In this document: positions 15,078-18,467 of the stretch, in pieces
Layout of the letters: every line of letters starts with the position of its first letter
How positions within the stretch are numbered: position 1 is the first letter of the stretch
DNA from: Methanofollis liminatans DSM 4140
Lineage (GTDB): Archaea > Halobacteriota > Methanomicrobia > Methanomicrobiales > Methanofollaceae
Reading direction: 5' to 3'
Assembly (NCBI RefSeq): GCF_000275865.1
Contig: NZ_CM001555.1
Coordinates: 62,001 to 126,000 of the forward strand
Length of the DNA stretch: 64,000 nt
Notes under the pieces: model-generated
The model's database searches: none
The model's input: only the letters and a program-made list of their open reading frames with translations
What the model was told of the DNA's origin: nothing
Program-made: the position numbers and the translations under genes

Positions 15078-17022
15078 GCTGACCGTCGGGGTGCACACGG
15101 AGGCGTACGAGTCGTGCATCGCCGCCCTCCAGGAGGCCGGGGCCGTCGAACTGGAGGCGGCCGGCGATGTGGAGGGACTGCAGGGGCTCATCAGTCCCCG
15201 CCCGCGGTCTGAGCGGATACCGGCGATCGCCACCGAGCGGGCGCGCCTTGAGCGGTGCATCGAGGCCCTTGAATCTATCCTCCCGGAAACAAACCCGATC
15301 AGAGAGATCTTCTTTCCAACGACGCCATCGCGGGTGCCGGTCGCAGTGCGCGGTGCGGACGCCGTCCTTGCAGACGCCGGACGGCTGCACGGGGTGATCG
15401 AGAGGGTGCTCGCCCTGAAGACAGAAGACGGGGCGATCGCCGGGAGACTCGAACGCATCGGTGAAGAGGAGGAGATGCTCGGATACCTCCTCCCCTTCGG
15501 GATCGACCTCGCATGGCTCGGCTCCTCCCCCTTCCTCGAGGTCAGGGCCGGGACGATCCCGGCCGGCGAGTGCCGGGAGATCGAGGCGCACCTTGCCGGG
15601 CATATGCCGGATCTTGCCGCGTGGTTCTGCCTCTGCGGGATCGGCGAAAACCCCGCCGTCGTCCTCACGACCGCCCATCCGACGGCGGCGGCGCAGGTCG
15701 ACGCCGTCCTCAGGAAACTCGCCTTCAGGGAATTTGCCCCGGGGATAAAGGAGGGGGCGCCCGAAGAGGGGCTGGCCAGGCTTGCAGGGGAACGCACGGC
15801 GCTTCTCCGGAAGCGGGAGGAGATCGTCGCCAGCCTCACGGAGATCGCCGCCGGGCACCTCCCGGCCCTGCGGGCCCTTGCCGAAGAACTCGCCTTTCTC
15901 AGGGAGCGGGAGGAGGCCGCCAGGCTCATGGGCGGCACCGCCGGTATGACCGTGCTCCACGGGTGGGTCAGGGAGGACGGTGCCGACGGCGTCGCATCGG
16001 TCTGCGAACGGGCGACGGACGGGCTTGCCTTCTGCATCTTCGGCCCGCCCGGCGAGGATGCGCCGGTCGCCTTCGACCATCCCGGCTGGCTCGCACCCTT
16101 CGGCTTTCTCACCGCCACCTTCGGGACGCCGGCATACGGCAGCGTCGATCCCACCCTCTTCCTCGCCCCGGTGCTCGTGCTCACCTTCGGGATCATGCTC
16201 GGCGACGCCGGCTACGGCATCCTCCTCGCCCTTCTCGCCGCCCTGGTCCTGAGAGGGGCCGGACGGACGCCGGGGACGGTGCGGGACCTCGCCCTCGTCC
16301 TCTTCGCCTGCGGGATCTCCGGGACGATCTTCGGCGTCCTGATGGGCGGGTTCTTCGGCGATCTCCTCCCCCGCCTCTTCGGGATACAGGCACCCTTCGC
16401 CGTCATTGAGCCGCTGAAAGACCCGATCGCCATCCTCCTCCTCGCCCTTGCGATCGGGATCGCCCACCTCAACCTCGGGCTGGCAATCGCCGCCCGCGAA
16501 CACCTGCGCACCGGAGACCTGCGGGCGATGGTCCTCTCGGAGGGAGTCTGGTTCGTCATCCAGCCCTGCGCCGCCGTGATCCTCCTGACCTTCTTCGGGT
16601 GGGGCGCCTTTCCCGAACCCGCCGTCACCCTTGCATGGGCCGGGGCCGGGCTCGGCATCGCCGGGGTGATGATCGGCGAGGGGCCGCTCGGGTTCTTCTC
16701 GCTCACCGGCTTTCTCGGGGACTGGCTCAGTTACGCCCGCATCCTGGCCCTCGCCCTCGCCACCGGCGGGATCGCCATGATGATCAATATCCTCGCCGGG
16801 ATGATCGCCGCCGTCCACCCGGCCCTCGTCGTCCTCGCCGTCGTCTTCGCCGTGGCCGGGCATGCGGGCAACCTGGTGCTCCAGGCCCTCGGGGGGTTTA
16901 TCCATGCCCTCAGGCTCCAGTACGTCGAGTTCTTCGGGAGGTTCTTCCGGAGCGGCGGCCGGCCCTTCAGGCCGTTTGCAGCCAGGCGGACCTTCACCGA
17001 GGTCACGGGAGGGGATGAGTGA
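15052..17022 (+). CDS. ahaI: A-type ATPase subunit I (membrane stator, a-subunit equivalent)
   Basis: 656 residues. The N-terminal ~350 residues form the cytoplasmic stalk-binding half; the C-terminal half has about seven or eight membrane helices (first near residue 365) with the family motif [11 protein letters not shown] and [23 protein letters not shown]. It carries the ion half-channels against the K ring. GTG 15052 is chosen as start: GGAGGTGACC lies just upstream and the resulting N-terminus [10 protein letters not shown] matches the family pattern. It overlaps ahaH by 26 bp. Confidence 0.93.
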
Positions 17023-18464
17023 TGGGGGTCGATGCCGGGCTCGTCCTCGCCGTCATCGGGGCCGGGCTTGCCGTGGGGCTTGCCGCCATCGGCTCCGGGA
17101 TCGGCGTCGGGATCGCCGGGGCGACCGGGGCAGGCGTGATCGCCGTCAGGCCGGAGAAGTTTGGAAAAGCGATCGTCTTCCAGGCGGTGCCGCAGACGCA
17201 GGGGATGTACGGCCTCCTCGTCGCCGTGCTCATCCTCCTCTCCACGGGGGTGATCGGCGGCGGGACTGAGGGCGTCCCCCTCCCCCTCGGGCTGGCGGCC
17301 CTGGGCGCCGGTCTGGCCGCGGGGATCGCCGGGCTCTCGGCGATCGGGCAGGGAATCGCCGCATCGGCCGGGATCGCAGCCACCGCCGAGCGCGACGAGG
17401 CGATGGGGAAGAGCCTGATCTTTGCGGTGATCCCGGAGACACAGGCAATCTACGGGCTTCTCGTCGCCATCCTGATCATGGCGTTCACCGGACTCCTGAC
17501 CGGATCGCCGGTGGCCACCGAGGCGACCGGGCTCGCGGCGATCGGCTGCGGGCTTGCCGTGGGGATCGCAGGTCTTTCGGCGATCGGACAGGGGATCGCC
17601 GCCGCCGCGGGATCGGCAGCGGCGGCCGAGCACGAGGAGAGTTTTGGAAAAGGGCTCGTGTTTGCAGTGATCCCGGAGACGCAGGCGATATACGGGCTTC
17701 TCGTCGCCATCCTGATCATGGCGTTCACCGGCATGATCGCCGGCGATCCGGTCGGCGACATTGCGATCGGTTTCGCGGCGATCGGGTGCGGGTTTGCCGT
17801 GGGGCTCGCCGGCATATCGGCGATCGGGCAGGGGATCGCCGCCGCCGCGGGATCGGCGGCCAGCGCCGAGCACGAGGGGTCCTTCGGGAAAGGGCTCGTA
17901 TTCTCGGTTATCCCTGAGACGCAGGCGATCTACGGCCTCCTCGTCGCCATCCTGATCATGGCGTTCACCGGCATGATCACGCGGGACCTCACCGCCACCC
18001 TTGCTGCGGGCTTCGCCTCGATCGCCTGCGGTTTCGCCGTCGGTTTTGCAGGGATCTCGGCGATCGGGCAGGGGATCGCCGCATCGGCCGGGATCGCAGC
18101 CACCGCCGAAAAGGAGGAGATGTTCGGGAAGGGGCTTGTCTTCACCGTCATCCCCGAGACGCAGGCGATCTATGGCCTCCTCGTCGCCATCCTGATCATG
18201 GCGTTCACCGGCATGATCACGCGGGACGTCACCGCCACGGCGGCCGCCGGGCTTGCCGCCATCGGCTCGGGTTTCGCCGTCGGGCTCGCCGGGCTCTCGG
18301 CGATCGGGCAGGGTATGACCGCAGCCTCCGGGATCGGGGCGACTGCGCAGCGTGAAGGGGCGATGGGGCCGAGCCTGATCTTTGCCGTGATGGCCGAGAC
18401 CTTCGCCATCTTCGGGCTGCTGGTGGCGATCCTGATCATGTTCGGGATCGGGCTCTTCGGGGGC
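17022..18464 (+). repeat. Six internal ~240-bp hairpin repeats in the rotor gene
   Basis: Approximate units: 17022-17270, 17271-17520, 17521-17760, 17761-18000, 18001-18240, 18241-18464. Units 3, 4 and 5 are the closest at DNA level, with runs such as the segment encoding [13 protein letters not shown] almost unchanged. This argues for recent amplification of the middle units, with the first and last units older. Confidence 0.85.
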
Positions 18465-18467
18465 TGA
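17022..18467 (+). CDS. ahaK: A-type ATPase rotor subunit K with six fused hairpins
   Basis: 481 residues, six tandem hairpins of ~80 residues (12 membrane helices), against one or two hairpins in most archaeal K/c subunits. Hairpins 2-5 each carry SAIGQG in the first helix and [11 protein letters not shown] in the second; hairpin 6 has SAIGQG and MAETFAIFG; hairpin 1 has GSGIG and VPQTQGMYG, so its ion-binding Glu is Gln. Five ion-binding carboxylates per polypeptide result. The Gln plus Glu-Thr-Gln ligand set in hairpins 2-5 resembles known Na+-binding rotor sites (for example Enterococcus NtpK), suggesting Na+ coupling (inference). ATG 17022 overlaps the ahaI stop; an alternative GTG at 17019 adds one residue. 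Confidence 0.93.

Follow-up and report, generated by a model that had tools for sequence, protein, structure and literature searches.

The window analysed here, a 64,000-nucleotide stretch of the Methanofollis liminatans DSM 4140 genome (positions 62,001 to 126,000 of contig NZ_CM001555.1), carries an intact A-type ATP synthase operon in which the rotor subunit K, a single polypeptide of six fused helical hairpins, is accompanied by the H-like, I, E, C, F, A, B and D subunits (Table 1). As read from the sequence, subunit I/a carries LSYARILAL and a second stretch of 10 residues, which we take to be the holders of the two arginines known from the a subunits of V/A-type enzymes. A GC-rich tract (window positions 8001–28000; 66–70% GC against 57–59% in the flanks) contains the ATPase genes together with the trp genes next to them, and a trpB-like neighbour stays close to the six-hairpin operon in three other Methanofollis genomes.

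Table 1. Genes of the ATP synthase operon and hairpins of subunit K (positions in the window)
Feature	Position	Strand	Basis
Subunit H-like ORF, first gene of the operon; start uncertain, probably about 14700	14640..15077	+	ORF; weak NCBIfam match to V-type subunit H, E 7.6e-4
Subunit I/a, membrane stator	15052..17022	+	PF01496, E 2.2e-15; NCBIfam subunit I, E 2.8e-125
Subunit K, six fused hairpins, 481 aa	17022..18467	+	ORF, Pfam, NCBIfam, AlphaFold2 model
Hairpin 1, silent (V29, Q58); T59, Q60 and Y63 assigned to site 1	17034..17246	+	model helices 5-75; motifs
Hairpin 2, Q110 and E139 (site 1); T140, Q141 and Y144 assigned to site 2	17280..17489	+	motifs, model
Hairpin 3, Q190 and E219 (site 2); T220, Q221 and Y224 assigned to site 3	17520..17726	+	motifs, model
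Hairpin 4, Q270 and E299 (site 3); T300, Q301 and Y304 assigned to site 4	17760..17966	+	motifs, model
Hairpin 5, Q350 and E379 (site 4); T380, Q381 and Y384 assigned to site 5	18000..18209	+	motifs, model
Hairpin 6, Q430 and E459 (site 5); T460 kept, F461/F464 in place of Gln/Tyr, predicted to face silent hairpin 1 of the next K	18240..18446	+	motifs, model
Subunit E	18474..19073	+	PF01991, E 2.7e-17
Subunit C (AC39)	19060..20244	+	PF01992, E 2e-33
Subunit F	20241..20552	+	position and sequence as read, without family search
Subunit A, catalytic, P-loop GPFGAGKT	20549..22306	+	sequence as read, without family search
Subunit B	22303..23691	+	TIGR01041, E 7.7e-226
Subunit D; start uncertain, near 23690	23601..24338	+	NCBIfam subunit D, E 1.1e-51

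The reading frame of K starts at the ATG at 17022, with the GTG at 17019 as an alternative. The Pfam family PF00137 (ATP-synt_C) matches it over six stretches (E 1.6e-93; 307 bits against a cut-off of 24), and an AlphaFold2 model, for which 20 sequences of six-hairpin K (K6) served as input alignment, likewise consists of six helical hairpins (mean pLDDT 92.5, pTM 0.91). This agrees with a preliminary description of the DNA, which had proposed six hairpins in one chain and a Glu missing from the first of them. Indeed, the outer-helix carboxylate is found in five of the six hairpins (E139, E219, E299, E379 and E459, in hairpins 2–6), whereas hairpin 1 has Q58 at this position, as well as V29 at the position of the inner-helix Gln, a loss which the preliminary description does not mention. 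With six hairpins and five carboxylates, the protein does not fit the two-hairpin V-type c subunit, which has four helices and one carboxylate per chain. An assembly artefact collapsing or expanding the repeat, which the same description had named as a possible refutation, can be rejected as far as sequence allows, because the 240-nt DNA repeats of the gene are only 70–75% identical to each other, the genome consists of one contig of 2,475,100 bases and three further genomes of the genus encode the same six-hairpin architecture.

In NtpK of Enterococcus hirae, Gln110 and Glu139 of hairpin 2 hold one Na+ together with three residues from hairpin 1 (Leu61, Thr64 and Gln65), while Tyr68 steadies the Glu (PMC2359735, in excerpt). 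When the ligand positions of K are assigned by alignment to NtpK, each site appears to be shared between neighbours: one hairpin (i) contributes Gln and Glu, and the one before it (i−1) contributes Thr, Gln and Tyr. Hairpin 1 would have no site of its own, because of V29 and Q58, and would still give T59, Q60 and Y63 to hairpin 2. At the other end of the chain, hairpin 6 carries the motif AETF. The preliminary description regarded the Thr–Gln pair of this hairpin as lost; the Gln is in fact replaced, by Phe461, but Thr460 is still present. The occurrence of F461 and F464 may be explained by what hairpin 6 faces, namely hairpin 1 of the following chain, which is silent. Since Thr, Gln and Tyr come from the preceding hairpin, the Gln and Tyr missing from hairpin 6 are not needed. 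We therefore do not retain the suggestion that hairpin 6 renders the sites unequal: the missing residues would have served hairpin 1 of the next subunit, which is silent, and the rule holds at 511 of the 513 joints in the 114 K proteins described below. The resemblance to Na+ sites, by contrast, extends to the whole set, the equivalents of Gln110, Glu139, Thr64, Gln65 and Tyr68 being complete at all five active joints, so that the five sites look complete and equal as far as their residues tell. The related proposal that a silent hairpin lowers the number of ions moved per turn finds support in hairpin 1, whose lack of ligands would have this effect.

The top VIA-align match of the K model was to a designed protein, a flat helical repeat (8ugc, rmsd 7.3), and was taken to reflect a common arrangement. 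The first natural relative was NtpK itself, from the V-type Na+-ATPase of E. hirae (PDB 2bl2; fold Z 17.0, rmsd 3.1 over 154 residues, 34% identity), which has the same ligands, a silent hairpin 1 (PGTQ) and a terminal ETY; however, it has two hairpins and one site per chain, in a ring of 10 chains, as against six hairpins and five sites here. Fused hairpins in an archaeal A-type enzyme are also known from Methanocaldococcus jannaschii and other methanogens, whose K has three hairpins instead of six (excerpts of PMC2359735; M. jannaschii is compared by description only). The three-hairpin K (K3) proteins of Methanomicrobiales, whose sequences were read, share with the present K the order of a silent first and an ETF-bearing last hairpin. 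The 13-hairpin K of Methanopyrus kandleri (Lolkema and Boekema 2003, as cited in passages of PMC2359735) is another fused rotor with Na+ ligands but, by its description, a single chain is thought to make up the whole ring, and none of the 13 hairpins has lost its ligands, leaving no seam. Finally, the F/V hybrid rings of Acetobacterium woodii and Clostridium aceticum (PMC7911925, in part; PDB 4bem) contain a silent Gln hairpin (Q....QT) which lowers the number of ions per ATP, although these rings are F-type and combine a two-hairpin c1 with single-hairpin c2/c3.

Multi-hairpin K proteins were surveyed at Methanomicrobiales loci, at 78 named loci from the best 80 of 146 candidates and at further survey loci from chosen places. 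The best 80 were selected without regard to hairpin number; all loci were picked by likeness to the hairpins of the window, so that the numbers of single- and two-hairpin K are no census. Of 117 distinct multi-hairpin frames, three were dropped (L081, cut by a contig end on the same contig as L118; L136, frameshifted near a contig end; and L027, a contig-end fragment) and 114 were kept for the counts; L030, another contig-end fragment, is also on the exclusion list. In this sample drawn by likeness, the 114 complete proteins have 2 (n = 28), 3 (n = 12), 4 (n = 24), 6 (n = 46), 12 (n = 3) or 13 (n = 1) hairpins, and none of them has 5 or 7–11. The only two apparent five-hairpin K are L081 and L136, and the two-hairpin K at L027 is equally only apparent. 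Single-hairpin frames numbered 78, two of which carry K6-fragment motifs (frameshifted Methanogenium cariaci K, L117 or L074), leaving at most 76 real ones.

Taking as a joint each hairpin with the one before it, and hairpin 1 with the last, there are 513 joints in the 114 proteins. The full set (inner Gln and Glu, with Thr, Gln and Tyr on the preceding hairpin) is present at 395 of them, and 116 are empty, 108 retaining Thr only and 8 none of the residues. Just two are intermediate, with Glu and Thr present and neither Gln nor Tyr; by motif they correspond to hairpin 4 of L133 and L135. Inner Gln and Glu are absent from hairpin 1 in every one of the 114 proteins. That the ligands of adjacent hairpins are kept or lost as a set is strong evidence that the hairpins follow one another in the ring in this order and that neighbouring chains meet at an empty seam.

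Some members of the sample show peculiarities of their own. The six-hairpin K at L133 and L135 have a half-formed inner seam, hairpin 3 carrying AETP without Tyr and hairpin 4 having Leu for the inner Gln with its Glu kept. In K6 from Methanoregulaceae (L016, L019, L115 and others) the four middle hairpins have CETQ, not PETQ, and hairpin 1 stays PQTQ; judging from the motifs, the middle hairpins look as if they were changing together. A six-hairpin K from Thermoplasmata (L119, 8578–10470) has an N-terminal PKD domain before hairpin 1 (PF18911, E 2.4e-17), a match absent from the three other Thermoplasmata K scanned. PF22619, a DNA polymerase I exonuclease-like family, matched some 35 residues of the K repeats at L124 and L126 with a score exceeding its cut-off, probably spuriously. 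Another Methanomicrobiales genome has a two-hairpin K with the motifs PLTQ and TETV (L088, 5208–5663) and, at a distance of a few kb, a single-hairpin K, which suggests a further type of enzyme.

The M. liminatans genome contains another A-type ATP synthase operon, near base 2,077,000, whose single-hairpin K of 85 residues has an inner Glu and PETI where the six-hairpin K has Gln and PETQ. Over the aligned parts, the two enzymes are 61% identical in subunit B, 30% in I, 26% in C and 34% in D; the GC content is 69% in the six-hairpin operon and 59% in the single-hairpin operon. Ile in place of Gln65 has been described as a mark of H+ enzymes (PMC2359735, in excerpt), an inner Glu is able to act like Gln (PMC3692424, in part), and coupling-ion predictions of this kind have failed in Methanosarcina mazei (PMC3017947, in part). 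A single-hairpin K is encoded in all 12 genomes of the genus and a six-hairpin K as well in four of them; across the class, 39 of 232 genomes gave 7–9 hairpin matches, as expected for a K6 plus one or more other K. In an AtpB tree of 80 rows, built by a quick method and with 24 of its 77 inner branches weak, the Methanomicrobiales K3/K6 operons are set off by a branch with support 100 and lie apart from the single-hairpin operons; the fused-rotor enzyme is therefore probably old and often lost.

The longest chains bear on the size of the ring. At L124 and L125, both from Thermoplasmata, 12 hairpins form two complete six-hairpin units with an empty seam in the middle of the chain. In L124, hairpins 1 and 7 are 81% identical, hairpins 5 and 11 93% and hairpins 6 and 12 78%, and by these sequences the gene is a tandem copy of a K6. 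In a third Thermoplasmata chain, L126, the twelve hairpins have one seam only. Within the starred Thermoplasmata clades of the AtpB tree, K4, K6 and K12 interchange, with six changes on that side; the Methanomicrobiales side has K3 and K6 only, with two changes between them among 41 rows. Twelve is the smallest number that 4, 6 and 12 all divide, and a ring of this size is also the smallest to fit 3, 4, 6 and 12.

The hairpin count, the ligand sets, the seam rule, the natural fused double units, the intact operon and the second, single-hairpin enzyme can all be read directly in the sequences. The reading we favour, with a probability of roughly 0.7, is that the operon encodes a second complete A-type ATP synthase in which two K6 would join head to tail to form a 12-hairpin ring. 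Every joint within each K would be a complete Na+-type site, while the joint between hairpin 6 of one chain and hairpin 1 of the other would be an empty seam, with the specific ligands lost on both faces. Such a ring would have 10 equivalent ion sites and two silent seams half a turn apart, and about 10 ions, most likely Na+, would pass per turn and per three ATP, corresponding to about 3.3 ions per ATP. We infer the ring of 12, the ion, the ratio and the direction of work from sequence. The Glu which L133 and L135 keep at a joint otherwise devoid of ligands counts against the model. A modelled 12-hairpin chain, with three rows in its alignment, reached a pLDDT of 45.6.

Alternatively, three K6 might assemble into a ring of 18 hairpins with 15 sites and 5 ions per ATP, or four into a ring of 24. 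Eighteen is divisible by both 3 and 6, the only hairpin numbers on the Methanomicrobiales side of the tree, and a V-type ring with 20 hairpins does exist, being made of 10 two-hairpin subunits in E. hirae (excerpts of PMC2359735). However, a ring of 18 cannot satisfy the interchange of K4, K6 and K12 among close Thermoplasmata relatives, and the two K6 fused in one chain point to a pair. Under the assumption that the Methanomicrobiales ring is the same as that of Thermoplasmata, on which this argument relies, we regard the larger rings as unlikely.

It is also rather improbable that the enzyme works with H+ and has its Na+ ligands as relics. Experiment has contradicted a ligand-based prediction of the ion in M. 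mazei (PMC3017947, in part), which would speak for such a possibility. Yet the five scored residues occur together at the 395 full joints and are otherwise lost together at seams, the two intermediate cases apart, and a set so strictly kept disfavours the relic reading. Moreover, a polar residue at the Gln65 position is tied to Na+ enzymes (PMC2359735, in excerpt).

We give very little credence to a mixed ring built from K6 and the other ATP synthase's single-hairpin K, on the pattern of the Acetobacterium F/V hybrid. Acetogens do have hybrid rings (PMC7911925, in part) and both kinds of K are encoded in this genome, but they belong to separate operons, and the single-hairpin K, with its inner Glu and PETI, has faces that do not fit those of K6 at the seam. 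Furthermore, among 16 genomes searched, five Thermoplasmata genomes with K6 or K12 (G232–G235 and G243) yielded no single-hairpin K frame; two of the five have only a weak match, in a 260-aa frame. Least credible is a K polyprotein cut into single hairpins that would form an ordinary ring, as the regular 240-nt repeats might allow, since the end hairpins are specialised, the seam rule puts the hairpins in a fixed order, chains of 12 and 13 hairpins keep the same order and the linkers are short in the AlphaFold2 model.

The favoured 12-hairpin ring may extend beyond M. liminatans. We see even chances that in several archaeal lineages the rotor is fixed at 12 hairpins and the ion-to-ATP ratio is set by cutting it into chains. 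The gene of the relatives comes in lengths of 12, 6, 4 or 3 hairpins, and a constant ring would then have 11 (or 10), 10, 9 or 8 sites. Four K3, three K4, two K6 or one K12 would thus give 8, 9, 10 or 11 sites and 2.7, 3.0, 3.3 or 3.7 ions per ATP, respectively. Gearing would proceed via gene fusion and fission, not via ring size, every chain end being an empty seam. The size of 12 is not universal: the single K chain at L138 (Nanoarchaeota) has 13 hairpins, like the published one of Methanopyrus, and must be its own ring or part of a ring of another size.

Fused K proteins have been published with two, three and thirteen hairpins (PMC2359735, in excerpt), and the known range is 3 to 5 ions per ATP (PMC5662883, in part). 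We found no description of a K with 4, 6 or 12 hairpins in the open-licence literature, and the main text of the study of Methanomicrobiales by Anderson et al. (PMC2686161) does not contain the words ATP synthase or ATPase. As far as that literature shows, the six-, four- and twelve-hairpin K, the all-or-none seam and the K6–K6 fusion are new, as is the restriction of hairpin numbers to divisors of twelve, 13 apart.

The ion-to-ATP ratio sets the smallest ion gradient that still makes ATP, which is central for methanogens and syntrophs living at the energy limit. Known enzymes alter this ratio mostly through ring size; here, the ring may keep a constant size, with the chain ends deciding how many sites are live. 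If the ring is fixed, a single polypeptide mass, ring symmetry and ratio are to be expected in each class, which makes the idea directly testable; for K6, the predicted symmetry is two-fold, with two blank steps per turn. The presence of single-hairpin and fused-rotor enzymes in one organism would allow the two to be compared within the same cell.
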